IMG/VR virus record: IMGVR_UViG_3300025030_000258
Span: 1 to 38,674 of that record
Direction: 5' to 3' (one strand)
Source of the DNA: a virus
DNA length: 38,674 nt
The position numbers and the translations under genes are program-made. How positions within the stretch are numbered: the stretch's first letter is position 1; each line of letters starts with the position of its first letter. This document shows positions 1-36,530 of the stretch, piece by piece. The notes below the pieces were generated by a model. The model saw only the letters and a list, made by a program, of their open reading frames with translations. It had not been told where the DNA came from and made no database searches.

Positions 1-10
1 AAATATGATT

Positions 11-964
11 ATGGAAGTAAACTTCCTTACCACAACAAATAAATCAAATGGTTACGGAATGACTCGTAAATACTTTAAGAAATTTCTACCAAAATACGGA
101 ATAAAATTAAATTCAGAATACACAGGACAAGAAATTACATTTATTTTACATATTCCTCCTGCAATTCAACACGCAAAAGGCAAAATTAAGGTTTTATATA
201 CAATGATTGAGGGAGATACTGTACCAGATTCTTGGATTCCTTTTCTTAAAATGGCAGATTATATTATTGTCCCAACTACGTTTGTTCAACAAGCTTTTGA
301 TAGGGCAGGATTTAAAACGTCTGTAATCCCCCTAGGATACGATTCTAGCGTCTTTTCCTACATAGATAGGGAAGAACACCATCCATACACTTTCTTTCAT
401 TACGAGGCATTTCAGGACCGTAAAGGATGGCAGGATTTACTTGATGCGTGGTTTCTATCTTTACATGAGGAAGAATACGATGCCCGACTCATTTTAAAAA
501 CAATAAAGCCATATAACGAAATACCTAAGGAAGTTCAACAATTTACTAATGTAAAGGTAATTTCAGGGGAACTTCCTCACCATTCTATATTTGATATTCT
601 GTCCGAGGTAGATTGTTTCGTTTTTCCCTCTCGTGGTGAGGGTTTTTCCTTACCTCCACTCGAAGCTATGGCTGTGGGTTTACCCGTAATTTTAAGTAAA
701 GGTCATTCTCACATGGATTATTATGACGAAAGATTTATGTATGGGGTTGATTGTGATATTCAAATACCGGCAGTATATCAGAATTGGGAAAGTCAGGGCC
801 ACTTTGTGCGGTGTAACGTGGATGAACTTGCAAGTGTTTTAAAACGTGTATATATTAATAAAGAAGAAGCTAAGGTTAAAGGTAAACTTGCTGCTGAATA
901 TGTCAAGAAATACAATTATGACAATACAGCAGAAAAGATAGCAAAGTTTTTATGTCAATTATAA
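11..964 (+). CDS. GT-B glycosyltransferase (GT4-like), tail side
   Basis: Probably transfers a sugar from a nucleotide-sugar donor in the cytoplasm. The C-terminal half has the GT4 donor-site signature: a hydrophobic strand ending DCFVFPSR, then GEGFSLPPLEAMAVGLP with the EX7E spacing. At about 317 aa it is short for GT4, and the acceptor half is compact. I chose the second ATG (11) over the ATG at 5 because the copy at 38376 has a -10-like TAAAAT exactly six bases before that ATG; no Shine-Dalgarno site is visible. It precedes the tail genes and overlaps the next ORF by 13 nt. A diverged copy begins at 38376. The family call is firm; acceptor unknown. Decoration of virion protein is inferred from position. 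Confidence 0.85.
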   Translation: MEVNFLTTTNKSNGYGMTRKYFKKFLPKYGIKLNSEYTGQEITFILHIPPAIQHAKGKIKVLYTMIEGDTVPDSWIPFLKMADYIIVPTTFVQQAFDRAGFKTSVIPLGYDSSVFSYIDREEHHPYTFFHYEAFQDRKGWQDLLDAWFLSLHEEEYDARLILKTIKPYNEIPKEVQQFTNVKVISGELPHHSIFDILSEVDCFVFPSRGEGFSLPPLEAMAVGLPVILSKGHSHMDYYDERFMYGVDCDIQIPAVYQNWESQGHFVRCNVDELASVLKRVYINKEEAKVKGKLAAEYVKKYNYDNTAEKIAKFLCQL

Positions 965-3237: not shown

Positions 3238-4074
3238 ATGGCTGAATTTGCCCGCATAACATACAATTTTAATAGTAGAATTATCTTAAACGATGTTTCA
3301 ACAGATACAACAAGGTATGTTTTATTAAATACTCCAAACATCACCGATACCCTAGTTATAAATACAGAAGATGAAAAACCAGAAGAAGCTGGGATTATAG
3401 ATTACGGCTCAAAGTTTGGTAAAGGTCAGTGGACAGTCCCAATTACTTTGTACGCTTCTTCAAATGAAAATATGGCGGCACTAATCCAGACTCTAAAACA
3501 AGCGTTTAATCCAGACTTACTTGAGGCGGACTCTACTTACGGGGAAACTACAAGCTATCTTGGATATCATCCACTAGATTGGACGGAAACAGTAGGTAGT
3601 ACCTCAAGAGCATTCAGAATTTATGCCAAGTCGCAGGAAACTCCAAAAGTGTCTATGGATAATATGTCGGGAAGTATTAGAAAATCTAATCTTCAATTAA
3701 AAGTTGCAGACCCTAGAAAATATCTTCAATCTGCAACAACCCTATCAGGTGCAGGAACTGCTACTAACGCAGGCACATATACAACTCCGATAGTTATAAC
3801 AATAACTGCCAGTGGAGCTACAAGTACAAGTTTGGCAATTACAAATAGTACGACAAGTAAATCAATATATGTTACTACAGCTCTTGCTAATAATGATAGT
3901 TTGGTAATAGACACTGGTTTGCATTCGTGTAAACTTAATGGAACAGAGAAAAGAAGTTTGTTAAGTGGTTCTACTGAATGGTGGCTTCTAAATTCGGGAA
4001 ATAATACATTAGCATTTACCAACGGAACTAATGCCACAGTATCTTTCTCGTGGAGAAGTGCGTGGCCTTTATAA
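3238..4074 (+). CDS. Distal tail (Dit)-like protein, Sipho_tail family
   Basis: 278 aa. The N-terminal half has the Dit-like beta domain (YGSKFGKGQWTVPITLYA, then the helix ENMAALIQTLKQAF and a LKVADPRKYL end). The C-terminal half has the galectin-like pattern of Sipho_tail proteins: SLVIDTG, then KLNGTEKRSLLSG, then EWWLLNSGNNTLAF, then VSFSWRSAWPL. Dit forms the hexameric hub joining tail tube and baseplate. It lies shortly upstream of the Tal-like gene, the canonical order. This is the strongest evidence for a siphophage-type tail tip. Confidence 0.8.
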   Translation: MAEFARITYNFNSRIILNDVSTDTTRYVLLNTPNITDTLVINTEDEKPEEAGIIDYGSKFGKGQWTVPITLYASSNENMAALIQTLKQAFNPDLLEADSTYGETTSYLGYHPLDWTETVGSTSRAFRIYAKSQETPKVSMDNMSGSIRKSNLQLKVADPRKYLQSATTLSGAGTATNAGTYTTPIVITITASGATSTSLAITNSTTSKSIYVTTALANNDSLVIDTGLHSCKLNGTEKRSLLSGSTEWWLLNSGNNTLAFTNGTNATVSFSWRSAWPL

Positions 4075-10875: not shown

Positions 10876-11881
10876 AAGTCTTTAGATATGCGTCCCACTC
10901 AGACGCAATCCCTTCCTTACCAAATATATTTATAGCTTCCATACGACCTGCATCTCCGATCTTCTTTGCATATTCGTCATCTTCAAGTAATCTACTAATA
11001 CATTTTCTTAGTAATCCGATATCATCAGAAACAAATCCCGTGTCTCCATTATCAATCAGTTTTGGAACCTCATAAATCTTAACATCATTATTGTCTTTGT
11101 GTTTCCACAACTCCTCCCCTACAGCAACAACGGGAATCCCAGTCATCCACGACTCAACAAAAGATAATGTGTAAGAAGCGGGCCACGTTCCACCATAGAG
11201 AAACAATCTAGCATCTCTAAGCTGACCTCTCATAAGGTCAAACGTAAGCGAACCTCCGTTAAATTCTCCAAGATCCTCATTCCCCGAACCATAAACCTTA
11301 AACGGATATCCCGCACTCATCTTCATCAAATGGTCGTATCCGCAGAAATCTCTTCTACCTTTTAACGATTGTGAGAAATTAACAGCTTTATTATCTATTC
11401 CTGTCCAATCTTTATACTCATCAGGATCTTTATAAAACCTAATCATTACATCCTCTCCAATATAGTTTGGCATTTTAGCCTCAAGTGGAGAATATCTAAC
11501 AATCTTTAATCCCTCGTCTCTACATTTTCTAAGTTGCTTTTCTACCCAAGGAGTTGATTGACCTATTGTTCTCCATATTACATTTCTGCCTTTGAAATTC
11601 TTCCAGTTCTGCAAAATTATATCCGGAACGTGCATAACAATAATCACATCAAACAAATCTAAGAAATCTTTGGGAATCTCTGTACGAGGAAATGTATTAG
11701 CAAGTTCTACTAAATCCGGTCGGTAAATCATTCCCGGTATTCCGGGGCGTCTTAAAGAGGCATGTCCTTTAGGGTCGGCATACGCTCCCCCAAGTGAAAA
11801 GCATTCGTGCCCAAGTTCAGTAAGGAGTAATAATTCATCATACTCCAAAACCTCGTGGACAGAAATATACAAAACCCTCAC
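10868..11881 (-). CDS. GT-B glycosyltransferase (GT4-like)
   Basis: 337 aa. The start MRVLYISVHEVLEYDELLLL is a GT-B N-domain; the C-domain carries RDARLFLYGGTWPASYTLSF, then VESWMTGIPVVAVG, the GT4 acidic and proline-containing segment, and a regular helical tail with LLEDDEYAKKIGDAG, typical of this family. Length and layout are normal. Overlaps its neighbours by ATGA (upstream) and 8 nt (downstream). Confidence 0.8.
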   Translation of the reverse strand: MRVLYISVHEVLEYDELLLLTELGHECFSLGGAYADPKGHASLRRPGIPGMIYRPDLVELANTFPRTEIPKDFLDLFDVIIVMHVPDIILQNWKNFKGRNVIWRTIGQSTPWVEKQLRKCRDEGLKIVRYSPLEAKMPNYIGEDVMIRFYKDPDEYKDWTGIDNKAVNFSQSLKGRRDFCGYDHLMKMSAGYPFKVYGSGNEDLGEFNGGSLTFDLMRGQLRDARLFLYGGTWPASYTLSFVESWMTGIPVVAVGEELWKHKDNNDVKIYEVPKLIDNGDTGFVSDDIGLLRKCISRLLEDDEYAKKIGDAGRMEAINIFGKEGIASEWDAYLKTYE

Positions 11882-12996
11882 AAAGTAGCCTCTATTTCGG
11901 ACAGTCTATCAAGCATCATTCTGCCGATAATTTTATAATTAAACGAACTTACAGTCATGTTTCTTGATGGGGTTGCTCTTGCTTTTAATAACTTTCTTGT
12001 TTTAATCGGAAGCCACGACTCATATATTTTTCTCATCTTTTCCTGCAAATCAGATTCATCTACCTCTGCCCACTTCATTCCCGGTTCATAATATTTATTG
12101 TAAATCTGCTTAATAGGAACAAGACTAAAATTAACTGCTTTATAATTCCTTGCTCTCCAATACTCATGTACACCACCAAATCCTACAGATATTACTGGTT
12201 TGCTATGCAATGTCGCCTCTACTTGAGAAAGTCCCCAACCCTCTCCTCTGTGAGCAGATACAAAACAATCTCCTGTCTCATGTATTCTGTGTTTTTCTAT
12301 ATCCGTAAGAATATTAGTACAAAAGAATACTCTGGGAGTATCCTTAAATCCTAATTCATTTTTCCATAGCTTTGCTTCGTGAATAATTTGTTCCACTTCT
12401 TGTTGTGGATAATTTCCAGTCTTGATAAGAAGTGCAACATCCTTAGAACCTTTAAACTCCTTCCAGAACGCATTAAGCAATGCTTTAGGATTCTTTCTCT
12501 CTTTCCAATCAAATATTGAATAAAACAAAAATCCATCAAAATTAGATATCTTATATGGTTTGACACTGGGTATATCAATATTTATAGATTGGGGAAATAT
12601 TCTTACGGGAACAGTTACACCGGAATCCTGAATTGTTTTCTTATTCAACTCCGTTCCTGTCCATATCTCGTCCATTAAATTACAAGGAGCGACCCACGAC
12701 TTTGGAAGGGACGTAGTTTCCCAAAACAAATGTCCTATATTATATTTACCCCTTTCTATGTAATTTTTATAAATATCGGGTGTTGTGTGAATAATCTTTA
12801 TCTTATAATCTATCTTTCTCTCTGATAACTCCTCTGCAGATTTTGCCAATAAGTTATTAGGAGAAGAAACATTTGTAAATACAACCTTTTGAGTACATAT
12901 ATCGGCTCCCGCTACAACTAACGCCTGTATAGCATTTCGTGAAGCTTCTCCATAACCAGAAGCGTCTAAAAATGGGCCAGCATAACAAACAGACAT
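11878..12996 (-). CDS. GT-B glycosyltransferase (GT4), first of the glycan cassette
   Basis: 372 aa. N-terminal YAGPFLDASGYGEASRNAI is the glycine-rich acceptor loop; FLFYSIFDWKERKNPKALL is the conserved donor-domain opening; GDCFVSAHRGEGWGLSQVEA holds the EX7E catalytic motif. ATG has GGAG 8 nt upstream and follows the 82-aa gene by 2 nt. First enzyme in the ATGA-coupled run down to 6591. The family call is secure; the sugar is unknown. Confidence 0.88.
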   Translation of the reverse strand: MSVCYAGPFLDASGYGEASRNAIQALVVAGADICTQKVVFTNVSSPNNLLAKSAEELSERKIDYKIKIIHTTPDIYKNYIERGKYNIGHLFWETTSLPKSWVAPCNLMDEIWTGTELNKKTIQDSGVTVPVRIFPQSINIDIPSVKPYKISNFDGFLFYSIFDWKERKNPKALLNAFWKEFKGSKDVALLIKTGNYPQQEVEQIIHEAKLWKNELGFKDTPRVFFCTNILTDIEKHRIHETGDCFVSAHRGEGWGLSQVEATLHSKPVISVGFGGVHEYWRARNYKAVNFSLVPIKQIYNKYYEPGMKWAEVDESDLQEKMRKIYESWLPIKTRKLLKARATPSRNMTVSSFNYKIIGRMMLDRLSEIEATL

Positions 12997-20494: not shown

Positions 20495-20704
20495 CTAATA
20501 ATCGTTCGTAACAATTCGATAGAACGGAATCCACTCGTAATTCACACTGGAAAGTCCCAACCCGTCTATTTGAACCGTTACGATCAATCCGGCTACAAAC
20601 GGATACAAACCTTTCGCTGCGAGATAAGGTGTTTGGGCCTGAAAGCAGGACATTTGAACACCCTCTACATTACGATACCCGGGAACGTGTGCCGGTACAT
20701 GGTA
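20495..20704 (-). CDS. Metallophosphoesterase, exon 2 (C-terminal 69 aa)
   Basis: Open frame with no start codon of its own, beginning YHVPAHVPGYRNVEGVQMSC and ending YRIVTNDY-TAG. Joined after H212 of exon 1 it completes the metal-binding motif GH-YH. QMSCFQAQTPYLAAKG resembles the last strand/helix of calcineurin-like phosphoesterases. Splicing at the T/intron and G/exon boundaries keeps the frame exactly. Without removal of the intron, exon 1 would run into a stop after seven more codons. Confidence 0.85.
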   Translation of the reverse strand, partial: YHVPAHVPGYRNVEGVQMSCFQAQTPYLAAKGLYPFVAGLIVTVQIDGLGLSSVNYEWIPFYRIVTNDY

Positions 20705-21362
20705 CGCTCTGTTACTTTATAACCCAAATGGGCGGGTAGTCATTTCTGCTACCTCTGCATATTCCTATGCAGTCCAGACTATATCTTCATCTGCAAATTT
20801 TTATTGTGAAAATGAATAAGTGCGTGGCAACTGTGGCAACAGGTAACCAAATTTTCTGGAGAATTATTTGGCGTTTTTGTTCGTCTCCCATTGTTATCTA
20901 TGTGATGTATTAGTAATCTTTTATCTTCCCCAAGGCAGAAGACACACCTGTTGTTGTATTTGCTTATAATCACAGTTCTATCTTTTATCCCAAATCTTTC
21001 GTTGGATTTTGCACGAGAGTTGTTTTTAATTAGTCTCTCCTTGCCCTCTTTTGTAGCATAATTTTTATGCCATTTAGATAGATAGTCGGCTTTTAACCTC
21101 TCTCTGTTTCTGTAATAGTATTCTCGCCACCTAGCCCTGTGCTTTTCTCGTGATTCTTCAGACCAATTTTTGTAAGCGTCTTTGTACAGCATATACAATA
21201 CATTATCACACACCTATTCATTTGTCAAAGTGCAGAGTTTGGCGTGTAGTCGTTACGGGTTCTAGCATTGCTAGTCTTCCCTCGGGATTGTCCGTTCTGG
21301 AGTTTCCCCGATATAGCCAAATTACTAGTGCCGTATTGCTACGACACGGACACATACATTTT
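20705..21362 (-). mobile_element. Group I intron with HNH ORF in L8
   Basis: 658 nt on the minus strand. P1: exon GGACAU pairs with intron GUGUCC (21348-21353), giving the required U-G at the 5' site; P10: GUA with exon-2 UAC. P2 is an 8-bp hairpin with a GCAA loop (21328-21347). P3 is TTTGGC/GCCAAA; P4 CGGG/CCCG (in TATCGGGGAAACTCC and CAATCCCGAGGG); P6a CTAGC/GCTAG; P7 GACTA/TAGTC; P8 TCTGCA/TGCAGA, whose loop holds the HNH gene. The S element is GATATAGTC (20777-20785). P9 is CTGCATA-GGAA-TATGCAG. The intron ends in G. A complete, probably self-splicing group I intron. Confidence 0.92.
20779..21213 (-). CDS. HNH homing endonuclease inside the group I intron
   Basis: 144 aa, GTG start; an ATG is seven codons later. 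The N-terminus is a basic helical DNA-binding region (SREKHRARWREYYYRNRERL then KWHKNYATKEGKERL). The HNH core is RCVFCLGEDKRLLIHHIDNN, then NSPENLVTCCHSCHALIHFH, with CxxC pairs and the H/N/H residues. Its TAG stop lies within the intron S element. It would cut intron-less copies of the phosphoesterase gene near the insertion site and so spread the intron. Confidence 0.9.
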   Translation of the reverse strand: MCDNVLYMLYKDAYKNWSEESREKHRARWREYYYRNRERLKADYLSKWHKNYATKEGKERLIKNNSRAKSNERFGIKDRTVIISKYNNRCVFCLGEDKRLLIHHIDNNGRRTKTPNNSPENLVTCCHSCHALIHFHNKNLQMKI

Positions 21363-21998
21363 ATGTCCTAGAAAAAGCATGTTGGGTTTATTCTCGCTAG
21401 CTAATTGCTCCACAATCTTTTGAATGCGATAGCTTCTGGCATAAGGCACGCCGGAGGTTCCGTGCATTAGAGCAATTAACAAACGCTTAAATTTGAGCGT
21501 AGCGAAATCAGCACCAAGATAAATAAAATCCTCACGCCTTCTTGAAACATGCTTCACCGCATCAATTCCCGCCGACTTTAGGAAGGAATTGTCGTGATTG
21601 CCGGAGATGATCCAAGTTTTCATTCTTGGAAAGCGGGGATAATTCTCTACGGCATATTCTATCTGCCTATCCGCACCGTGAACAAAAATCTCGTATTCCT
21701 GACCACGATACATCTTCTCTCCATCGACCAAGTCCCCGCAATGGAGCATGACCCTAATTCCCCTTTCCATACAAAGTGCATAAAAAGACTTAAGGTGTGT
21801 AAGTTGTTGGTATCTTGATCCCAAATGGGTATCGCTCACTACACCAAAAGTATATTTTCCACCTTCCCAACGTTGCAAACTAACATTTCTGCTCCTTCCT
21901 GCACTTTTCAAGGCCCGCTTGACTGCAACATAACCACGATTCTGCAATTCCTTCAAAAGAACACTACTCTCTACCTTCCGGACAGAATTGTCCTTCAT
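21363..21998 (-). CDS. Metallophosphoesterase, exon 1 (N-terminal 212 aa)
   Basis: Calcineurin-like phosphoesterase. Metal-binding motifs in order: D56-T-H58 (VVSDTHLG), G88-D89 (LHCGDLVDG), G134-N-H-D137 (IISGNHDN), H179 (ALMHG), and G211-H212 at the exon end; Y213-H214 come from exon 2. Full product about 281 aa. Start 21998 is chosen over 22052 because AAGGAGG lies about 6 nt upstream. Uses two metal ions to cleave phosphoesters; the substrate (DNA, nucleotide or protein) is not readable. Fits between the lysis genes and the origin region. Confidence 0.88.
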
Positions 21999-24819: not shown

Positions 24820-25324
24820 AATTAAGGCGGGAGGAGTTTTTCATCCATTTATTTCAAATCCTGAATGTCTGATATGTCAGGCATACGAGGATGGTAAAAA
24901 TATCCGAACTTTAATTGATAAATACATCGTAAGTAATTCTATTGCAAAAACAAGAGTCTTTTTATCCGAAAAAGGAATTTATGTGGGCGAGGTTGCAATC
25001 GAATCCCATATTAAAAGGCATTCTGCATTCATTAAAGAGATAAAGAAAGCAATTTTAGAATCTGCAAAAAAGGTTTCTCTTGCAAAGCTTGATTCTCTTG
25101 AAGATGAATTTATCGAGGCTGAGGATGTTTTAACTGATATTATTAATATCGGTGGAAATAAGATTCGTTCAGGAGAGATGGCGGTTGATAGAGTTCTCTT
25201 ACTTGGAGCGTTAAAGGAACAGGGAACTAGAAAACAACAAGGACGACTCAGGGATCTTCTTGATGAATTGGATTCTAAAAGATTTATCGAGGGAGAGGTT
25301 GTAGATGACGAAAACATTACCTGA
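24803..25324 (+). CDS. Small terminase subunit-like protein
   Basis: 173 aa. NPECLICQAYEDGKNIRTLI and a helical basic middle (SHIKRHSAFIKEIKKAILES) then an acidic C-terminus (KRFIEGEVVDDENIT). Directly upstream of TerL with a 20-nt overlap, the usual TerS position. The CLIC pair is unusual for TerS. Good ribosome site AAGGAG. Confidence 0.6.
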   Translation: MKLSGRIKAGGVFHPFISNPECLICQAYEDGKNIRTLIDKYIVSNSIAKTRVFLSEKGIYVGEVAIESHIKRHSAFIKEIKKAILESAKKVSLAKLDSLEDEFIEAEDVLTDIINIGGNKIRSGEMAVDRVLLLGALKEQGTRKQQGRLRDLLDELDSKRFIEGEVVDDENIT

Positions 25325-26729
25325 AGTATATACAAGGAATTGGAATCCATCTGAATTTGATTCTTCCCTATTTATTTCAACATATATTTCAACTTTAGAT
25401 AAACCATTAAAACCAACAGGAGAACAACTTCGTTTTATGAAAAATATGTTAAGTGGTGATTTTGATGAAGGTTGGTTTGCGGGAGGGAATTCCAGCGGTA
25501 AAACTTGGACGGCTAAATTTATGGCCATGCACTGGGGTTGTTTTAAGATTAAACCCGGAAAGAATAAATTTGTATCTATGGGCGAGTACAGGAATGCACC
25601 ATATAATATTTTATGTACGGGACCTGAGAACAAACAAGCTATGGAGTTATGGAGTTCAATCGAGGATTCTTTTAAGAAATCTCCAATTCTAAAATACAAA
25701 GTAGATTCGGTTACCACGGGAACAAAACGAAACATTCACCCATCTATGATTCTTGATAACGGAGTTATGATTGAGGCGGTGGGTTTGCATGATAAAGGAA
25801 AACACATCGAGGGTCAAGCTTACGATTTAATTCTTTTAAATGAACCTCCTGATGTCAGACATTTGGTACATTGTTATGAAAAGGTTTTAATTCCCAGAAC
25901 TTGGAGGCGTGGTGGGGTGATTGCAGGATTTGGAACTCCTAAAGGGAAAGGAGAATATTACGGATTGTGGAGACGTGGACAAAAAGAACTTGACGGAGCT
26001 CCGAATAAGTATTTTGAACCAAGAGTTTATTCTCAATATTCTGATTCACGAACCAATCCTTATGCAGATCAAAATAAAATTCTTATAGATATTAGAGGAA
26101 AACCTGAAGAATGGGTGCGGGAAAGAATTGAAGGCAGATTTATAGATTCAGTGTTTTCGGCTTTTAAGGATACTGATATTGATAATGTAACCTTTCCTGA
26201 CCTTAAAAAAAGTATTCCTCCATCTACAAATCATCAATATATTCACGGATTGGATTTTGGACGAAAGGGAGACTTTACGGCACGGATAACGTGGGACGTT
26301 TCTGTTAGACCACATGTTCAGGTGGATGTTTATCGTGCGGGAGGCGGAGCAGTAACTTGGGAAAACATCTTTGAAGATATCCTAAATGCAGCCAAGAAAT
26401 ATCCGGGAGAATTTATTTATGATGCAACAGGAATGGGGGGAGATATTCAAAAAGAATGGCTGGATGATATTGGAATTCAATCTGTTCCTTATCAGTTTGG
26501 CGGCTCTCCGGGTAAAAAAGTGGCTTTAATAAATAATTTACAGGATTATATTACAAAGGCAAAGTTTAAGATGGCATACGATGACCAACTTCAAAGCGAA
26601 CTCAGGGGCTATCCTGCGAACTTAGATGACAAGGGAATGGAAACTGATATGGTTATGGCTTTAGCGTTGTGTGCGTGGGGAGCAAGAAACTACGAACCAT
26701 TAGGTCAGGTTGAATACTATAATAGGTAA
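25305..26729 (+). CDS. Large terminase subunit (TerL)
   Basis: 474 aa. ATPase: Walker A GGNSSGKT (residues 60-67, K66), Walker B YDLILLNEPP (N179-E180), coupling motif GFGTPKG. RNase H-like nuclease: D317 in HGLDFGRKGDF, D373 in YDATGMGGD, then a late acidic site (DKGMETDMVMALAL). Packages DNA into the prohead and cuts it. Near-complete length for the family. Walker B has N before the catalytic Glu instead of D, a variant seen in some terminases. Confidence 0.92.
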   Translation: MTKTLPEVYTRNWNPSEFDSSLFISTYISTLDKPLKPTGEQLRFMKNMLSGDFDEGWFAGGNSSGKTWTAKFMAMHWGCFKIKPGKNKFVSMGEYRNAPYNILCTGPENKQAMELWSSIEDSFKKSPILKYKVDSVTTGTKRNIHPSMILDNGVMIEAVGLHDKGKHIEGQAYDLILLNEPPDVRHLVHCYEKVLIPRTWRRGGVIAGFGTPKGKGEYYGLWRRGQKELDGAPNKYFEPRVYSQYSDSRTNPYADQNKILIDIRGKPEEWVRERIEGRFIDSVFSAFKDTDIDNVTFPDLKKSIPPSTNHQYIHGLDFGRKGDFTARITWDVSVRPHVQVDVYRAGGGAVTWENIFEDILNAAKKYPGEFIYDATGMGGDIQKEWLDDIGIQSVPYQFGGSPGKKVALINNLQDYITKAKFKMAYDDQLQSELRGYPANLDDKGMETDMVMALALCAWGARNYEPLGQVEYYNR

Positions 26730-26743
26730 ACCTTTCAGATAAC

Positions 26744-26771
26744 TTGATATTTATTTATAATATTGTACTTT
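26744..26771 (+). promoter_or_regulatory. Promoter, leaderless type, before 26778 gene
   Basis: TTGATA (26744-26749), 16-nt spacer, TACTTT (26766-26771), six bases to ATG 26778. Shares the context AACTTGATATTT with the promoter at 36681. Confidence 0.6.
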
Positions 26772-26777
26772 ATAAGT

Positions 26778-28493
26778 ATGGACAAATTGAATATGGACAT
26801 GTTTTCCTTTCTGGCATTGTGGTTCAATAATCTTCGTAAGAATGTATTCAAAGTTGAGGTAATAAATAATTCAAAAGACGATACTAAAAATCTTGAGTCC
26901 AAACTTGACGAGGTCGTTCAAGCTCTAAAAGAACTTCCAGAGGAAAGATCGGATATTACTGAAAAGAGAATGAAGGAATATATCGTTCTCACTAAGGCTT
27001 TGGATGAAAGAAAAACTCAAAAGGTTGAGGTTACAAACTTAAAATATCCCGAATTAAAAATACCAAAAGATACTCAAGTACATGGGTCGGTTTCTGTTTC
27101 CAACCTTCCTAAAGTTCAAGAGGTATCAGGAGATATTAATGTAAGAGAATTTCCAAATCTATTAAAAGGTATTCAAGTTGTAGTGGATACAATTAACGAT
27201 TTGAAATTAGATTTCGCCCAATCTTTTAAAGGTTTTGGAAATTCGTTTGCAAGCACGGCAGGTTCTAGGGAAGCAATAAAGATTACTGACGGTAGCAAGA
27301 ATGCAACATTAACTACATCGGGCTCTAAGAATTTATTAGATGTAAACATAGCTTCAAGCTCTGCTGGTGGGGACGCTACAGCGGCTAATCAAGCTACTAT
27401 GATAACTTCACTTGCGAATATAGATTCCGATACTTCCGCCATTCAAACCGCAGTCGAAACTATTGATAACGCAGTTTCGGGAGCGGGATTTAATATTACG
27501 CAACAAGGTGGAGTAGCTATCTCATTAAATACAGGAGTAAGAGACAGCGGAACTCAAAGAGTAACTATTGCAACAAATGATGCAGTTCCGATTACAGATA
27601 ACTCTAGTTCATTAACTGTAGATGGAAACGTAGGGTCGTCTACAGCTACAGGAACAACAGTACCAGCAAATGCATTTTATATAGGCGGTAATAATTCTGC
27701 TGGTAATTTAGGTGGTGTTTCACTAAATATTAATGGTATGAATAGTTCCGGAAATACAGCATTACAGGCTATGCATATTGCACAATTTGATGATACTTCA
27801 CCTACTTCAATAACTGAAAACCAATTTGGAAATGTAAGAATGTCAGCTAATCGCAATCTTTATGGAACAATTCGTGATGCGGCCGGAAATGAAAGAGGTC
27901 TTAATGTGGATGCTTCTGGACAAATAGCAATAACAGTTGCATCAATTCCTTCACATGCAGTTACAAATGCAGGAACTTTTGTAACTCAAGCTACACTTCA
28001 AGCAGGAACAGCAGAGGTTGGAAAACTTGCTGCAGGAATTGCTGAAATTGGAAATGTAAAAAACAGTGGTACATTTGCAACCCAAGCTACTTTACAAGCA
28101 GGTTCGGCCGCTATCGGAAAGTTAGCAGCTAATTCGGGTGTAGATATCGGAGATGTTGATATAACTTCAATTGCTACGGGAACAAATGCAATCGGTCGGG
28201 TAGGACATGATATTACAGGAATTGGACATGGGGTTACTACTGTTACAACTGCGGGAACGGATGTGGTTTTAGCTGCTTCTACTGCATGTAAACGTGTAGT
28301 TATTCAATCTCAAACTGATAATACTAATTTAATTGCTGTTGGAGCTACTGGAGTTGATGCTACTATTGCCACAGGTAATGGAGTAGTTTTATATCCGGGA
28401 GATGCTTTTGAACTTGAGATTGATAACTTAAATGATGTTTACATAGATTCTTTAGTTAATGGGGAAGGTGTGAGATATACATATTTTACATAA
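26778..28493 (+). CDS. Tail/fibre-like repeat protein
   Basis: 571 aa. A coiled-coil N-terminus (LEDKL-type region, KLDEVVQALKELPEE) then long Ser/Thr/Ala-rich beta repeats: GTFVTQATLQAGTAEVGKLA and GTFATQATLQAGSAAIGKLA are close copies. SVSNLPKVQEV units and TAANQATMITSLAN are typical of phage head-decoration or fibre proteins. Starts at ATG 26778, not 26763, because of the promoter spacing. Exact role uncertain. Confidence 0.6.
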   Translation: MDKLNMDMFSFLALWFNNLRKNVFKVEVINNSKDDTKNLESKLDEVVQALKELPEERSDITEKRMKEYIVLTKALDERKTQKVEVTNLKYPELKIPKDTQVHGSVSVSNLPKVQEVSGDINVREFPNLLKGIQVVVDTINDLKLDFAQSFKGFGNSFASTAGSREAIKITDGSKNATLTTSGSKNLLDVNIASSSAGGDATAANQATMITSLANIDSDTSAIQTAVETIDNAVSGAGFNITQQGGVAISLNTGVRDSGTQRVTIATNDAVPITDNSSSLTVDGNVGSSTATGTTVPANAFYIGGNNSAGNLGGVSLNINGMNSSGNTALQAMHIAQFDDTSPTSITENQFGNVRMSANRNLYGTIRDAAGNERGLNVDASGQIAITVASIPSHAVTNAGTFVTQATLQAGTAEVGKLAAGIAEIGNVKNSGTFATQATLQAGSAAIGKLAANSGVDIGDVDITSIATGTNAIGRVGHDITGIGHGVTTVTTAGTDVVLAASTACKRVVIQSQTDNTNLIAVGATGVDATIATGNGVVLYPGDAFELEIDNLNDVYIDSLVNGEGVRYTYFT

Positions 28494-28496
28494 ACT

Positions 28497-29687
28497 ATGA
28501 GTGTAGTTAAAAGTATACAACATGTAATAAGAAAGAATTCTGCTGGTTCTGACTTTATAAGAAGAAGAATTAATTTAGTTGAAGGTACAAATGTAACTTT
28601 AACTGTTGCTGATGATTCAACAAATAATGAAACTGATGTAACTATAGCTGCCGCCAGTGGTACTCCCGCATTCACTGACACTATTATTAAGAAAATGTAC
28701 ACCTCTGTAATGCTAAACACTTACCGTACTTTAGACCACACAGCAGGTGGTTTTGCGTTAAATGAAGATGGGTTAGTTGATGCTTTTGAAAGTGAAGCCG
28801 GGGTTGATACAGGAACCTCAACGAATGAATCTTACGACTCGGCAAATGATTTGTATGCTCCCTCATTAGCTGATGGTACAGAGGAAAGTAACACAACAGA
28901 TATGGCGGAAGCAGGGCTAATGCTCCTAAATTACAACGCCGACTACCAGACTCTGGCTGGAGGGTTTAAAATCACTAACGCTAGGTCTGTTACAAAGGTA
29001 ATTGTAAGTCTTAACAAAGTAGGTTCTCCAACGGGAACAATGACAATGACAATTGAAACAGATTCAGCAGGTTCTCCGTCAGGTACGCCGGTAACTAATG
29101 GTACAGCAAATACGGTTGCTGAATCGGGACTTAGTACCTCCTTTGGAGAGATTACATTTACTTTTGCCACACCTCCTTCTTTATCTGCCGCTACGCAGTA
29201 TCATATAGTCATCACCTCAAATAGAGCAAATGATACAAGTAACCATGTAAAGTGGAATCATGGTTCTAATACTACAAACTACGCCAATGGCGACGGCAAG
29301 AGAAAAGACAGTGGTGGAACATGGACAACTCAAAGAGATGTATACTTTAAGATTATCTACAACCAAATTCAAAATATGACACTTCAATCAAATGCTTTTA
29401 CAGCACAAGCCGCCCCAACTAATGCCAGACTTATGGTCTTAGAGGTTAATGTCGATTCGGTTACGGTTAATACAGATATTAAAGGTTATGTTTCAAGAGA
29501 CGGAGGAACTACATTTACTCAAGTTACGCTCGTAGATGAGGGAGATACAGAAGCAACTGCAAAACAAATCCTTGTAGCTAATGTGGACATATCCGCACAA
29601 CCTTCTGGAACAAGCATGAAGTGGAAAGTAACAACATTAAATAACAAAGACATGGATATTCACGGGGTTGGGTTAATGTGGGATTAA
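28497..29687 (+). CDS. Fibre-like protein with choice-of-anchor-R domain
   Basis: 396 aa. N-terminus VEGTNVTLTVADDSTNNETD is the common fibre-tip start. Residues about 140-270 repeat the domain of the 1795 protein (KVIVSLNKVGSPTGTMTMTI, then FATPPSLSAATQYHIVITS). C-terminus is beta-rich (KGYVSRDGGTTFTQV, then KWKVTTLNNKDMDIHGV). Probably surface-exposed; could bind glycans. No ribosome site, so coupling from the gene upstream is likely. Confidence 0.65.
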   Translation: MSVVKSIQHVIRKNSAGSDFIRRRINLVEGTNVTLTVADDSTNNETDVTIAAASGTPAFTDTIIKKMYTSVMLNTYRTLDHTAGGFALNEDGLVDAFESEAGVDTGTSTNESYDSANDLYAPSLADGTEESNTTDMAEAGLMLLNYNADYQTLAGGFKITNARSVTKVIVSLNKVGSPTGTMTMTIETDSAGSPSGTPVTNGTANTVAESGLSTSFGEITFTFATPPSLSAATQYHIVITSNRANDTSNHVKWNHGSNTTNYANGDGKRKDSGGTWTTQRDVYFKIIYNQIQNMTLQSNAFTAQAAPTNARLMVLEVNVDSVTVNTDIKGYVSRDGGTTFTQVTLVDEGDTEATAKQILVANVDISAQPSGTSMKWKVTTLNNKDMDIHGVGLMWD

Positions 29688-29688
29688 T

Positions 29689-29716
29689 TTGAATTTATTT
29701 GTTTTTGTGAGAATAT
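29689..29716 (+). promoter_or_regulatory. Promoter candidate before portal gene
   Basis: TTGAAT (29689-29694), 16-nt spacer, GAATAT (29711-29716), six bases to ATG 29723. Spacing matches the leaderless set, but the -10 is poor. Confidence 0.35.
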
Positions 29717-29722
29717 GAAAAT

Positions 29723-31504
29723 ATGGCAGATTTTATACAACAACTAAAAGAAATGTTACCCGGTACAAAAGAACATACTGAATTAATTTCCAGTCAAAGG
29801 TCAGCAATTGAAGTTATGCAGTTGTGGGAATCAGGAGAAAGTGTTTATTCTCAATTAAAAACCAGACTTGAATTTAACAGAGATTATTATCTTGGAAAAG
29901 AAAGCAGACAATTTAATTCAAGAACTACAGAAGGTGAGCTTCGTATAATAACTAATGTTGGTGCTACCGTTCTTGATTTAATGGTATATTTGCTTTCAAA
30001 TAACGCCCCCTATATTCAAGCAACACCAAGAACTAATGACAAAACGTCTCAGATTGAAGCTAGTGTTGCAGAAGATTTGGGAAATTCAGCTCTTAGAATG
30101 GCAGGATTTCACAAAACATTTAGAAATACTTGCTGGCTTATGGTTCTTGGGGGTTTTGCGTGGTGGTATCCATTTTGGAATAACGAAAAAGAGTTTGGAA
30201 GAAAGAAGAATAAGTTTGATTTTTCTACACTAAATCCATTCACAACCAGAGTTTTTTATCAGGATACAGATTATGAGAAAATTCCTACTTTCATAACTAC
30301 TAAAAGAATGACTCCAGAATCTGTATTTGACTTATATGATGGTTTTGTCGCAGGACCTGATTCACAAAATCCCTTCATTCCTGAAACTATTAAAGGAGAG
30401 GGAATTAGTGATAATAAAGTTACGGTGTTTAGAAAATATGACTCAAAGAATACAATTACTGTTATTGATAGCAGAATAGCAAAAACAGAAGAACATGGCT
30501 TGGATTTCACGCCGCTTATTCAAATAAATAATAAATACGTGGTGAATGATCCCCACGGGCATGATGATATCTTTAGAATGCTTCCCGTAGCTCAAGAGTT
30601 AAACATGCTAATTTCAGCAGCTTCTGAAATTGCAAGAGATTTAGCATGGCCACCTTTATTAGAATATAACGGGGCTTTAGGAGGTAAGAAAGTTCCTAAA
30701 ATGCGTGGGGTTAAAATTCCTGTAAGACGAACAGATAAGGGAGAGTCTTTAGAATATATGGTGAACCCGGCTCAAATGGAGCCTCTTTTAAAACAAATTC
30801 AGTTATTATTAGACCTTTTCCATTTTGTTTCATTGATGCCAAAGGCTGCTGCTGGTGTGTTTGATTCTTCGGTCACATCAGGATTTCAAGCAAGAATTGC
30901 AATGCAACCAGCTACACTTTCAACCGAGAATAAGAGAATAGACCTAGATGCGGCAATAGAAAGACTTGTAAAGATTGCATTATATATGATTGAAAAAAAT
31001 GACCCTTCAGCTCTTGAGGTTGATGAAAACACAAAATTAACAGAACTTTATAATCTTGAATTTAAGGTAGTTTGGCCAGATAACTTACCAATTGATATAG
31101 CAAGAGAAATTCAGAATCTTATATTGGGCATTCAAAATTCATTAACTTCAGTTACTCAAGCTGTTGATAAATACAATGTAATGATGGGTATGGGTTCTAG
31201 TGAGGAAACTTTAAATTATCTAAAACAAGAATCCAAGGATTCAAGCGTAGCTCCAGATCGTGCTCTTAAAGTAGCTCAAGTTCAACAGGCATTATCACAA
31301 ATTGACCAGTCTATGAGTGAAATTAGAGATAAACTTGGGGTTAGTATGACTCCTGATAATATTTTACCCGGAGGAAATGAAACTAATGCAGAAAGAGCTA
31401 TGACCTCTCCCGACCAGCAAAACCAACCAGTAGATACTTCAAGAGAAGCAGTTCCGCCTGAAAGCATGGGCGGACAGATTCTTCCGCCTGGAGGTAATCA
31501 ATAA
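29723..31504 (+). CDS. Portal protein
   Basis: 593 aa. RLEFNRDYYLGKESRQFNSR, then RIITNVGATVLDLMVYLLSN, is the N-terminal clip/wing of phage portals; AQELNMLISAASEIARDLAW and SGFQARIAMQPATLSTENKR fit the stem and crown helices. C-terminal Gln/Pro/Gly-rich tail. Forms the dodecameric DNA channel at the vertex. Position between terminase and scaffold supports the call. The stop is shared with the next start (TAATG). Confidence 0.8.
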   Translation: MADFIQQLKEMLPGTKEHTELISSQRSAIEVMQLWESGESVYSQLKTRLEFNRDYYLGKESRQFNSRTTEGELRIITNVGATVLDLMVYLLSNNAPYIQATPRTNDKTSQIEASVAEDLGNSALRMAGFHKTFRNTCWLMVLGGFAWWYPFWNNEKEFGRKKNKFDFSTLNPFTTRVFYQDTDYEKIPTFITTKRMTPESVFDLYDGFVAGPDSQNPFIPETIKGEGISDNKVTVFRKYDSKNTITVIDSRIAKTEEHGLDFTPLIQINNKYVVNDPHGHDDIFRMLPVAQELNMLISAASEIARDLAWPPLLEYNGALGGKKVPKMRGVKIPVRRTDKGESLEYMVNPAQMEPLLKQIQLLLDLFHFVSLMPKAAAGVFDSSVTSGFQARIAMQPATLSTENKRIDLDAAIERLVKIALYMIEKNDPSALEVDENTKLTELYNLEFKVVWPDNLPIDIAREIQNLILGIQNSLTSVTQAVDKYNVMMGMGSSEETLNYLKQESKDSSVAPDRALKVAQVQQALSQIDQSMSEIRDKLGVSMTPDNILPGGNETNAERAMTSPDQQNQPVDTSREAVPPESMGGQILPPGGNQ

Positions 31505-33294
31505 TGGCATACGCAACAAGACGCAGCTCAGGAGGCTGGACAACAATAGCACCAAGAACTGACTATGCTAATGTAGTTGCAAATTATGCCGCTGTTATTA
31601 GACAAGCTCAGATAGAACAAAAGAATACCGAGATGGAGTCTAAAGTATTTGCATATAAGAACGGTCAATTAAGCTATGAGGATTTAAAAAAGTATCTAGC
31701 AGATTCTCTTATTCAAGAATTATCCGGCTCTCAAAAAGAACTTGGTATAAGACAGCTTCAAGTTGAGCTTGATAATTACGAGGACAATAAAAATAAAGAT
31801 ATTGAAAGAGCAAAAATGGAAGCACAGTTTGCTTCTAATGGGATTTCCGCATCCGAAAGAGTTCAAATTGAAGAATCTTTATTAAGATTTTACAAGGATG
31901 GAACTCCTGAATATACTAATCAACTTAGTACAATAGCTACAGCTAAAGAATTACAGAGAGTAGATCAAAAGAATGCAAAGATTGCTCAAATTGAATCCAG
32001 ACTTTCAGAGAGCGGATTAACCAATAGGGAAAAGATTTCTCTTTATGAACAAGCAAAAGGTATGACGGAAAAAGGAACTGCTGAATATTCTAATTTACAA
32101 ACAAAGATTAACGACATCAAAGTTTTACAAAAGGAAGAAGAAAATAAAAAGAAATTAAATCAAGTTCAAACAGCCCTAATTGATAAATATAGTTCGGGCG
32201 GACTAACTAATGATGAAAAACTTTTAATGAATAAAGAACTTCAAAAGTATGTCGAGAAAGATTCTCAAGATTTTGTTAATCTTAAAGAAAATGAAGCAGC
32301 TTTACTTGGTGCCATAGCAGATGAAAAGAAAGTTGCAGGAAACAAAGGTGTAGAAGATTCAAGAAGAACTGCGGCGATAGAATTTAATAAATCTAATGTA
32401 GAACTTGAAGCTATAGAGGGAAGATTTTCAATAGATGTGAATATGTCAGAAGAAGAATATATGGCGGCTAAGGAACAAATTCTAAATAATCAAAATAAAA
32501 TAATAACCAATCTCGGTAAAGCCGCATCAGAGGAAGAAACAGCTCAAATGCAATTTGAAATACAAAAATTTTTAGAATTAAAAAATGCAGTTCAAACCGG
32601 TCAAGCGGCGGTTGTAAAAGACAAAGAAGGTAAGAAAGCAATTAGATTACTAAAAGAATTGGGTGGCTATATTCAGACAGAAAAGGTAGCAAGTCTTGAC
32701 CAAATAGAAGGTAACATTGCAGCGAGCTACGAAGAAAAACCTGTTGTTACTATTGTGGAAAATGGTGTTGATAAGAAATATGTTGTAAATACAGATGGTA
32801 AATTTGAATTATTATCTGGTCAAGTTAAATCCAGAGATGTTACCGGAAAAGATGTAGCAGTGTATAAAGCCACGGGACAAATCTCTACTTCTGTGGGCAT
32901 TCAAAAGAAAGTAGAAGTGCCCGAATTTGGTTTTACTCCTGTTCCAACATCTAACTTTACCCCAGTGCCATCATCTACAACTGTAACCTCTGGTGGAAGT
33001 AAAGTTTCTACCCCAAAACCAACTACTTCTTCAAACAAAAAGAGTACCTCTAATATTACCAGCTCTACAAAACCAAACGCTGTAGCTTCCACAATATCTG
33101 CAATAACTAACATTACAAAAGCAATTAGAAGTAGCGGACCAGGAAATGCTTATGGGGCAACTACTAAAACGGGAACTATTAAACCAGGCAATATTCGGGG
33201 AACACTTGATTTTGGTATAACTGAAAGACTTGGAATAGGTAAGAAAGTAACCAGTGCTATAAACTGGGCTAGAAGTTTATTCAAGAGGAAATAA
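31504..33294 (+). CDS. Long coiled-coil virion protein
   Basis: 596 aa. Residues about 30-400 are near-continuous coiled coil (EQKNTEMESKVFAYKNGQLS, then EKKVAGNKGVEDSRRTAAIE) with repeat-like blocks; the C-terminal 150 residues are Ser/Thr/Pro-rich (SSTTVTSGGSKVSTPKPTTS). Could be an ejection, scaffold or tape-measure-like protein. No membrane segment or enzymatic motif. Its length would only suit a short tape measure. Confidence 0.55.
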   Translation: MAYATRRSSGGWTTIAPRTDYANVVANYAAVIRQAQIEQKNTEMESKVFAYKNGQLSYEDLKKYLADSLIQELSGSQKELGIRQLQVELDNYEDNKNKDIERAKMEAQFASNGISASERVQIEESLLRFYKDGTPEYTNQLSTIATAKELQRVDQKNAKIAQIESRLSESGLTNREKISLYEQAKGMTEKGTAEYSNLQTKINDIKVLQKEEENKKKLNQVQTALIDKYSSGGLTNDEKLLMNKELQKYVEKDSQDFVNLKENEAALLGAIADEKKVAGNKGVEDSRRTAAIEFNKSNVELEAIEGRFSIDVNMSEEEYMAAKEQILNNQNKIITNLGKAASEEETAQMQFEIQKFLELKNAVQTGQAAVVKDKEGKKAIRLLKELGGYIQTEKVASLDQIEGNIAASYEEKPVVTIVENGVDKKYVVNTDGKFELLSGQVKSRDVTGKDVAVYKATGQISTSVGIQKKVEVPEFGFTPVPTSNFTPVPSSTTVTSGGSKVSTPKPTTSSNKKSTSNITSSTKPNAVASTISAITNITKAIRSSGPGNAYGATTKTGTIKPGNIRGTLDFGITERLGIGKKVTSAINWARSLFKRK

Positions 33295-36200
33295 TGGGCA
33301 TACTGCAAGATCTTCAAAGTAAGATAACGCAAAGTAAACAAGCGTTTTCTAATATAGTTGGTAGTGCTATTAAAGCAGGTTCTTCTATCTATCAAGGATT
33401 GACGAACGCTCCTTTATCTCCAACCTCTTTAAACAAAAGATATGATGTAACAGGGAAAGTATCTAGTGATGTTAAAAGACAGGTTAGTGAAACTATTAAT
33501 ATAGGTAAGCCAGAAAATCGTAAATCTGCTGGAATATTACTCACCCCATTATTACAAACTACTGCCGCTATGAGAAAATTACCAAAACCAATTCAATCTT
33601 TTGTAGATAATCCAAAACTATTTGGCACGGCACCTCAGCTTCCTAAAAGATTTGAGCATCTTCAAGCACAAGACGCTCTAGTTAGAAGCGGTCTTAATTT
33701 TATATCTAATCTAGCAAAAGGAGCGGTTTTCGGTGACCCTAAAAGAACAAAGCAGGTATTAGATTCTTATTCAAAAGTTTTATCTGGTAAGCCAATTACA
33801 AGTTCAGAAAGAAAAGAGTTAGAGAAATTTGCTAATGAGCAACAAATTAATTTTATCTTACAAGCGTCTACAGGTGCGATTGCTGGAAAACTAAAAGTTC
33901 CTAAAGGAGTACCTTTAATACAAGAAGAAGTTACGCTATATCACGGCGGTACTACCGAGAGTTTTTCTAAAGCAGTACCGGGAGGCACAAGAACTAAATT
34001 GAAAAACGTATATGCTACTGAAAGTAAACAATTGGCAGAAATATATGCTGAAAACCGAGGAGGTAAAGTAATAAAAGAAGTTTTTAGTTCGGAAGATTTT
34101 TTTGACCCATCTTCTAAAGAGGCTGTCGGAGAATTGATTAGTTTATTTAACAGTAAAAAAGCAACACTTAGTTCAGAAACCATTATATTTATGAAAGCTG
34201 TGGAAAATGAATTTTCTAGTGGAACACCCACGAGATTATTAGATAGACGGCTCGCTTATTTTGAAAGTATACCAGAAATAAATAAACTATTAAAAGATGC
34301 GGGATATAAAGGTATAAAACTTCCCTATACGGCAGACGTATCGGACATAGCTGGTAACGTTCCAAGTGAATTTGTGTTGTTTTCAGACTCTATACAAAAA
34401 GGTGGAAGTAATATACCGACATTACCTACCACAGAAATATCAGATATCTTAACTCCCGAAGGTCAGGTTAAAATAAAACCTCAAGAGTTAAATGTAAATA
34501 AACTTGACCTTACTTTAGGAGAGAAATTAGATATTCAACAAATTGGAGCAAAAGAAGTTAGAGAAACTTTAAAAGATTCTGAGATTTTAAAAATAGCTAA
34601 AGGTGCTGGTTTAGATACAAAAACTTATTCTTTAGACCAAACTGCGGAAGTGATAGCAGAGCAACTAAACACTCGAAATAGGATAGTGGAATTAGAGAAG
34701 ATTAGAATAAACCTACAAGCTAGTGGTGGAAGTACAGAGGAATTAATAAAGGTAACAAAAGAGATGGTTAATCTCTTGGGTGCAACATCCTCTCAAGGAA
34801 CTGATGTAGCACGACAGCTTAGAGCAAGACAAATTGTAGCTAATGAACTGGATACTCCTATGCAAAGAGTATTTAAGCTTTTAAGAGAAGCTGGGGTTAA
34901 TCCTGATGAATATATTAAAAGGTCAACGAGTGTTGATTTCAACGATCCCAAACAAGTTCAGGATTTTTTTAGAGAGCTTGTACCATCAAAGTGGTGGGAT
35001 TGGACAGATAAATATAGATATGCAAATATGTTGAGTTCTCCAACTACACACACAACAAACATTGGATCAAATGTAACTGGAACAGCTTTAGTAACCCCTA
35101 TTGAAAAAACAATAACTGGGGGATTGGATTGGTTGGCTTCCACAAGTGCTTCTTTAATTGGTAAAAATAGACCAAGACAGACTTTTGCAGGTGAGGGATT
35201 AGAATATGCTAAAGGTTACTTTCCTGAGCTAAAAAATGCTGCTCATAAATTTGCTGATGTTATGTCAGGAACAGTTACATCAAATGCTCAAGGATTAGAT
35301 GCAATGCAACTAACAACATCCACAGAAAAACTAACGTTAGGAAAATTGGAACTTCCAATAAGAGCAAGGGCGTTAGAAAATGTTTGGGATTTTCCATTAA
35401 AAGCTTTAAAAGGTGTGGATGAGTTCTTTAGAGTTCTTAGTAAAGGCGGATTAAAAAAATCATATGAATATCGTATTAGTAAGGGAGTTCCTATTTCTAA
35501 TTTAGAAACTAAAATGGATGATGAGGCAATAAAGAGGTTGTTTAACGCTCCTCTTGGAAAGGCAGATGAGGGAAACATATTAAATGCAATGAGTGAGGTT
35601 GGAAGATTGGTAAATAATTTAAGAAACAACAAAAACCCAATTGTAAGTAGTTTGGCTAAAATATATGCCCCATTTGTAAAAGTAGCTACAAACCTGGCTA
35701 AACAAAGTATTGAGTATTCTCCTCTTGGTTTTACTACGATATGGAAAAATCCTAATAAGACAGAGCAAATTTCTAAAGCTATTATGGGTTCTAGTGTGAC
35801 TTTGGGAGCCTCAATACTTGCATCAAGTGGTAGATTAAGAGGAGCACCAAAATCTAACCAGAAAGAAGAACAAGCATATCTTAGTAAGGGCATTCCTCCT
35901 TACTCGGTAAAAATTGGAAATAAGTGGATTTCTTATCAAAAGATGCACCCTCTAATATCAGCTAATTTTGCTTTAGTTTCAGCCACACACGATGTGTTAA
36001 ACAAAAAGAGTACAGACGATGAAGCCCAGAGATTACTAGATTTAGCAAGTAAATACTTAATGTTCTTTGCCGACCAGTCTTTGAACAAATCAATTGGAGA
36101 ATTTGTTAAACTATCTTCTGGCGACCCTAATGCAATTGAAAGATTTACCGCAACCGGATTCAGACAATTTATACCTTTTAGTTCATTCTTTGCGTGGTTA

Positions 36201-36530
36201 GAAAGAGCTGTAGATCCTGTTCAAAGAAAGCCAAGTGCGGATGCTGGTCCAATTGAAAAGACATTACAAGAAATTATGAAAACACTTCCCGGTCTTGCAG
36301 AGAATGTTCCGGTAAGAGAAGATTTATCAGGAGAGCCGATTCAAAATACAGATAGAATATTAAATATGTTAAGTCCTTTTGGAAAGATAACTACAGAAAC
36401 CCAAAATCCCGAAGCAGATTACTATCTTGAGAGTTTGGATATTAAAAGAGAAAATCGTGTTCAGAATGAACTTGATGATAAAGCTATAACAAAGCTACAA
36501 GAAAAATTAAAGAAAAAGAAACCCCGCTAA
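33294..36530 (+). CDS. Large internal virion protein with ADP-ribosyltransferase-like domain
   Basis: 1078 aa. Residues about 213-370 have the polyvalent ART plan: TLYHGGTTESFSK (YHG at 216-218), then NVYATESKQLAEIYAENRGG, then KDAGYKGIKLPYT and PSEFVLFSDSIQ at the end. Residues about 390-700 contain the phage polyvalent-protein segment YRYANMLSSPTTHTTNIGSN. The C-terminus ends in PFGKITTETQNPEADYYLES. Probably ejected with DNA and able to modify a host protein. The ADP-ribosyl transfer is predicted, not shown. The glutamate of the ARTT loop is not obvious. Confidence 0.65.
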   Translation: MGILQDLQSKITQSKQAFSNIVGSAIKAGSSIYQGLTNAPLSPTSLNKRYDVTGKVSSDVKRQVSETINIGKPENRKSAGILLTPLLQTTAAMRKLPKPIQSFVDNPKLFGTAPQLPKRFEHLQAQDALVRSGLNFISNLAKGAVFGDPKRTKQVLDSYSKVLSGKPITSSERKELEKFANEQQINFILQASTGAIAGKLKVPKGVPLIQEEVTLYHGGTTESFSKAVPGGTRTKLKNVYATESKQLAEIYAENRGGKVIKEVFSSEDFFDPSSKEAVGELISLFNSKKATLSSETIIFMKAVENEFSSGTPTRLLDRRLAYFESIPEINKLLKDAGYKGIKLPYTADVSDIAGNVPSEFVLFSDSIQKGGSNIPTLPTTEISDILTPEGQVKIKPQELNVNKLDLTLGEKLDIQQIGAKEVRETLKDSEILKIAKGAGLDTKTYSLDQTAEVIAEQLNTRNRIVELEKIRINLQASGGSTEELIKVTKEMVNLLGATSSQGTDVARQLRARQIVANELDTPMQRVFKLLREAGVNPDEYIKRSTSVDFNDPKQVQDFFRELVPSKWWDWTDKYRYANMLSSPTTHTTNIGSNVTGTALVTPIEKTITGGLDWLASTSASLIGKNRPRQTFAGEGLEYAKGYFPELKNAAHKFADVMSGTVTSNAQGLDAMQLTTSTEKLTLGKLELPIRARALENVWDFPLKALKGVDEFFRVLSKGGLKKSYEYRISKGVPISNLETKMDDEAIKRLFNAPLGKADEGNILNAMSEVGRLVNNLRNNKNPIVSSLAKIYAPFVKVATNLAKQSIEYSPLGFTTIWKNPNKTEQISKAIMGSSVTLGASILASSGRLRGAPKSNQKEEQAYLSKGIPPYSVKIGNKWISYQKMHPLISANFALVSATHDVLNKKSTDDEAQRLLDLASKYLMFFADQSLNKSIGEFVKLSSGDPNAIERFTATGFRQFIPFSSFFAWLERAVDPVQRKPSADAGPIEKTLQEIMKTLPGLAENVPVREDLSGEPIQNTDRILNMLSPFGKITTETQNPEADYYLESLDIKRENRVQNELDDKAITKLQEKLKKKKPR

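Follow-up and report, generated by a model that had tools for sequence, protein, structure and literature searches.

The minus strand of a 38,674-nt viral contig (IMG/VR record IMGVR_UViG_3300025030_000258, hereafter the window) harbors a metallophosphoesterase (MPE) gene that is divided into two exons by a group I intron, which in turn carries an ORF for an HNH homing-endonuclease-like protein (Table 1). Matches to terminase, portal, and internal virion proteins lie elsewhere in the window, at 25305-36530, as do two glycosyltransferase-like genes (phrog_2170) at 2-964 (+) and 11878-12996 (-).

Table 1. Positions in the window of the MPE exons, the intron, its helices, and its ORF.
Feature	Positions	Strand	Details
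Exon 1, MPE gene	21363..21998	-	Codons 1-212, ending ...NMLFLGH; open frame, identity of the spliced product to L001, Pfam Metallophos/Metallophos_2 above cut-off
Exon 2, MPE gene	20495..20704	-	Codons 213-281 (69 codons + stop), beginning YHVP; gapless alignment to L001 residues C-terminal to GH
Group I intron, 658 nt	20705..21362	-	Two ordered RF00028 halves, complete helices, blastn core matches to phage introns, missing from 81 homologous genes
P1	21348..21368	-	GGACAT of the exon (21368-21363) pairs with internal guide GTGTCC (21353-21348); recovered in the unconstrained minimum-energy fold too
P2	21328..21347	-	8 bp, GCAA loop
P3	21238..21321	-	TTTGGC 21321-21316 with GCCAAA 21243-21238
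P4 + P5	21282..21311	-	P4 21311-21306 / 21287-21282; P5 21301-21299 / 21293-21291
P6 + P6a	21257..21281	-	P6 21281-21279 / 21259-21257; P6a 21274-21270 / 21266-21262
P7	20777..21251	-	GACTA 21251-21247 with TAGTC 20781-20777; S element GATATAGTC; no P7.1/P7.2 before P3′
P8	20790..21236	-	TCTGCA 21236-21231 with TGCAGA 20795-20790; HNH ORF in loop; placed alike in six relatives, with other paired sequences
P9	20755..20772	-	7 bp, GGAA loop
P9.1 + P9.2	20723..20753	-	P9.1 20753-20749 / 20739-20735; P9.2 20732-20729 / 20726-20723; pairing assessed in the window
Intron ORF, HNH homing-endonuclease-like	20779..21213	-	144 codons from GTG; alternative starts ATG 21192, TTG 21198; in P8 loop

The spliced protein is a calcineurin-like phosphoesterase. 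It matches Pfam PF00149 and PF12850 above cut-off, with one MPE domain running through GHxH, and contains all of the MPE motifs (DxH, GDxxD, GNHD, H, and GHxH). Residues D56, H58, D89, H135, H179, H212, and H214 do not vary among five relatives, and both GHxH histidines are conserved without exception when 36 relatives are aligned. The motif split by the intron is an active-site motif of the MPEs, a superfamily in which such residues ligate metal. The L001 homologue, modelled with AlphaFold (pLDDT 91), best matches the archaeal PolD small subunit DP1, followed by Mre11/SbcD, and sequence profiles agree with the model in pointing to a PolD DP1-like family. Among annotated phages, relatives of the MPE were found in Halorubrum virus BLv36 only, and a search of plasmids returned none. 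A phage phosphoesterase related by structure match, BFVD A0A8S5P6X8 (Siphoviridae sp. ctsUY14), has an annotated Hint (intein) domain and aligns with a large insertion; the phosphoesterase family may be prone to both introns and inteins.

The exon and intron coordinates put forward in the initial annotation of this DNA are exact. The joined exons form an open frame of 281 aa, and the nearest viral homologue, L001 (IMGVR_UViG_3300033487_000008), an uninterrupted gene with 58% identity over 280 aa (residues 2-281), reads LFLGH-YHIPNITPGYRN through the predicted junction. Across the join, L001 has ENKPNMLFLGHYHIPNITPGYRN and the spliced product of the window has ENKPNMLFLGHYHVPAHVPGYRN. The intron parts the two histidine codons of GHxH, where homologues read straight across, such that joining the exons restores GH-YH as had been proposed. 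Further homologous loci were fetched with a profile built from five relatives. The comparison with intron-less homologues, which the annotation had named as a way to overturn the intron, instead bears the junction out: L001 and 80 other viral loci are uninterrupted and match it. All 81 span the junction in one alignment without a large insertion, and GHxH is gapless in 78. The six bases preceding the splice site are GG in 81 of 81 loci, any base, CA in at least 80 of the 81, and then C or T about equally; the P1 of the intron requires T at this last position, at which the loci carry either base. Only a single MPE gene with this intron was found, the 81 homologous loci lacking the insertion, and a search of viral contigs for the exact DNA pattern GGCTATATCGGGRAAANTCCAGA gave no match.

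Reading through the intron leads to a stop inside P2 and an unspliced product of 219 residues (ending ...GHKMYVSVS), the truncated enzyme that, as anticipated in the annotation, a gene caller would report. Directly 3′ of the phosphoesterase stop codon, a terminator-like hairpin (AGCCCCTA...TAGGGGCT) occupies 20495-20431 (-), so exon 2 probably ends its transcript.

The RNA structure is that of a complete group I ribozyme core. In the helices previously assigned (P1, P2 with its GCAA loop, P3, P4, P6a, P7, P8, and P9) every pair is canonical or G-U; the same holds for P5 and P6, while P9.1 and P9.2 also pair fully. The P4-P6 and P3-P9 domains with the P3/P7 pseudoknot are complete, and no mismatch occurs in the R and S elements. 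P1 has the expected U-G pair at the 5′ splice site, and the last intron base is a G (G20705), as claimed. A P10 pairing is there as well, although it is weaker than had been stated, consisting by eye of a 3-bp UAC:GUA with a one-nt bulge. When the RNA is folded without constraints and with the ORF excised, P1-P6a, P9, and P9.2 are recovered; P7 is absent from this fold because it is pseudoknotted.

The helices stay paired in six related introns. Compared with the window, these introns carry two-sided changes in P3 (up to 4 pairs), P4, P5, P6, P6a (up to 4), P8 (up to 5; the L095 count, one base out of register, is to be disregarded), and P9. The counts lean towards structure because they were made on hand-delimited helices. 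These helices were used instead of a MAFFT core alignment, which put the variable helices in the wrong place. P7 is invariant among the seven introns compared and therefore affords no test by covariation.

In the window, the 3′ end of the intron (AAAGTaaCAGAG, 20718-20707, -) finds a complement in the sequence around the P8 5′ strand (CTCTGcACTTT, 21237-21227). Minimum-energy folding yields this 5+5 bp pairing, a competitor of P8, whether or not the ORF is excised from the intron. Such an alternative fold could slow splicing.

The initial annotation had also proposed an Infernal search, with a score below threshold counting as refutation. On this count the intron falls short: the two Intron_gpI (RF00028) halves reach 29.8 and 28.5 bits where the cut-off is 50, and a gathering-level Rfam search of the 38.7-kb window gives no match. 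A permissive search of the whole window (E up to 0.5) returns the two Intron_gpI halves only (E 7e-4 and 2e-3), on the correct strand, in order, and flanking the HNH ORF. Rfam misses the intron at the gathering score because the ORF splits the core. The ORF-bearing introns of phages Vi06, B2, and ZCPS13, used as controls, are likewise sub-threshold at 24-38 bits, and ORF-free introns reach 63-87 bits (RCIP0099 70.6, L092 63.5, and L095 87.1). Split matches around a nuclease loop are reported to be common, with a nuclease ORF interrupting 32 of 45 Bastillevirinae introns (PMC11878797). The RF00028 gathering score is a detection cut-off and not a biological definition. The locus illustrates how annotation can fail when a curated Rfam threshold is not reached and gene callers truncate the enzyme.

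The HNH ORF makes up most of the intron but was absent from the initial account of it. Its translation shows two CxxC pairs and IHHID...N...H. PHROG HNH families match it with E values of 3e-7 to 3e-3. In NCBIfam it best matches IscB, in the HNH part (E 3e-9, below cut-off) and with RuvC missing, and Pfam HNH gives an E value of 0.26, below cut-off. By profile, the ORF is of the homing type, and its HNH domain is encoded in a dispensable intron loop. The stop codon TAG constitutes the first three nucleotides of the P7 3′ strand TAGTC, and the ORF also covers the P8 3′ strand. No relatives of the HNH protein were found in the phage collection, and viral contigs contain one weak relative (L008) with no intron detected nearby.

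Core matches in blastn include the introns of phage DNA polymerase genes (Vi06, B2, and ZCPS13), of MaeS, of a Bacillus prophage tape-measure gene, and others. Subgroup IA2, which is defined by P7.1/P7.2 stems (PMC3428280), is rejected for the window intron, in which only CAC separates P7 from P3′; Vi06, RCIP0099, L014, and others carry extra stems at this place. By sequence, the intron groups with those of Microcystis phage MaeS, the Bacillus T33-2 prophage tape-measure gene, and contig L092. Its subgroup may be IB-like. Two further pattern matches, L093 and L094, are due to chance and lie in coding DNA that has neither an S nor a P4 element.

Two of these relatives present features of their own. 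In L095, an ORF-less group I intron (87 bits) at 3504-3823 splits the phage tail tape-measure gene. L092 (IMGVR_UViG_3300049727_000048) has three group I matches within ~2 kb on its minus strand (3431-3269, 2060-1895, and 1579-1400) that score 63.5, 44.6, and 41.8 bits, one of them above the gathering score. Two of the matches flank a LAGLIDADG-like ORF (AYVAGLMDAEGCFSIY), and the arrangement looks like a multiply invaded gene.

The precise delimitation, the complete core, and the intron-less homologues that match the junction uphold the original identification of a group I intron. Very probably, this is a mobile self-splicing group I intron that reached the most conserved codons of the viral MPE gene by homing. 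On the basis of the chemistry of the family, the pre-mRNA would fold into P1-P9, and guanosine attack at U21363 followed by exon ligation would yield GH-YH and the full 281-aa enzyme. MPE activity is, by sound inference, predicted to require splicing. The HNH protein from the P8 loop would most likely cut or nick intron-less copies of the site, whereupon the intron would be copied in by recombination; HNH-bearing introns that splice and home are known (PMC3428280). The intact core, the exact junction, the intron-less relatives, and the homing-type ORF are all read from sequence, whereas splicing, cleavage, and mobility at this site are predicted. An active-site position would provide a target common to related viruses and would make imprecise loss costly. 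The literature agrees with the annotation that group I introns often occupy conserved catalytic codons (PMC3943268, PMC2988022); mobile introns and inteins alike favor the most conserved active-site codons (PMC3943268, PMC2988022, PMC5050341).

It is unlikely that the intron is degenerate or splices poorly, leaving the gene in effect broken with only the 219-residue protein made. The Rfam halves below the curated score, the P10 of only 3 bp, the alternative pairing of the 3′ end with the P8 5′ strand, and the stop inside P2 of the unspliced message would fit such a decayed element. However, pairing is perfect throughout the core helices and in the R and S elements, no stop interrupts the HNH ORF, the protein sequence of exon 2 is preserved, and known working-type introns with ORFs score equally low in Rfam.

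A regulatory role had been suggested in the annotation, in which splicing could act as a switch. The only features of the sequence that bear on it are the overlap of the ORF with P7 and P8 and the complementarity of the 3′ end to the P8 5′ strand. One can picture a coupled control in which HNH translation and the alternative 3′-end/P8 pairing together tie splicing to translation or to the stage of infection and so time the onset of phosphoesterase activity, although we rate this slightly below even the broken-gene reading. Splicing as a regulatory switch that times phosphoesterase activity is a yet more doubtful proposal. The insertion parts two invariant active-site histidines, so activity should depend on splicing, and translation of the HNH ORF crosses the 3′ strands of P8 and P7 and could slow splicing; in T4 td, the 3′ end of the I-TevI ORF enters structured intron sequence, and its translation lowers splicing (PMC2988022). 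In contrast, no ligand-binding element or Rfam riboswitch was found in the whole window, 81 relatives are without the intron, and homing alone explains insertion at the active site (PMC3943268, PMC2988022). Because such insertion is usual for mobile introns and inteins, no regulatory explanation is needed, and the suggested switch finds no backing in the sequence, homing into the most conserved codons being sufficient to explain the site (PMC3943268, PMC2988022, PMC5050341).

That the locus instead consists of two unrelated frames separated by an inserted HNH gene is scarcely credible: free-standing HNH genes do split phage genes (PMC2988022), but here joining the exons restores the frame at precisely the codon boundary of the homologues, and the ORF sits within a complete group I core.

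The position of the intron in the MPE gene lends support to a rule already established, whereby invariant active-site codons are the places in which mobile self-splicing elements settle. Inserts of this kind at such sites are already well known in phages, and no new mechanism is opened by the finding; the invaded gene and the location of the ORF in P8 are mildly new. An MPE gene of a PolD DP1-like family joins the genes invaded by phage group I introns, and a full-text literature search found no paper reporting a phage group I intron in such an MPE gene.

Among known systems, the archaeal PolD small subunit DP1 is the best sequence and fold match to the interrupted enzyme family, with GHxH aligned. 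However, DP1 has N-terminal domains that the viral MPE lacks, and any function in common is putative. Inteins adjoin a conserved motif of a phage MPE-like protein, the mycobacteriophage RDF (PMC5050341), but these are removed by protein splicing rather than RNA splicing and belong to a different MPE family.

The closest ribozymes are the MaeS intron (MT362618, L011) and that of L095, which share with the window intron P3 (TTGGC/GCCAA), the R element GTAACGACTACACGCC, the S element GATATAGTC, the P9 region, and the lack of P7.1/P7.2. Both occupy other host genes. The L095 intron, from the Bacillus sp. T33-2 prophage, has no ORF, whereas MaeS carries ORFs in P6a and has a short P8, in contrast to the window, where the HNH ORF fills P8. 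ORFs in P6a of MaeS, and in none of the other close relatives, suggest that ribozyme and endonuclease have been shuffled.

The T4 td/I-TevI intron (PMC2988022) resembles that of the window in having an endonuclease ORF in a loop, with a 3′ end overlapping core helices, and in residing in a functionally critical gene. The td intron carries a GIY-YIG enzyme, whereas that of the window carries an HNH enzyme whose ORF ends inside P7. The IA2 introns of T7-like phage DNA polymerase genes (Pf-WMP3 I-PfoP3I and Vi06; PMC3428280) are similar to the window intron in length (~650-670 nt), in the possession of a small HNH ORF, and in the invasion of a conserved-enzyme gene, and their P4-P5 and S-P9 sequences are 80-90% alike to those of the window. 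They differ in the presence of P7.1/P7.2, in the placement of the ORF in P6a, and in the identity of the interrupted gene, which is DNA polymerase.
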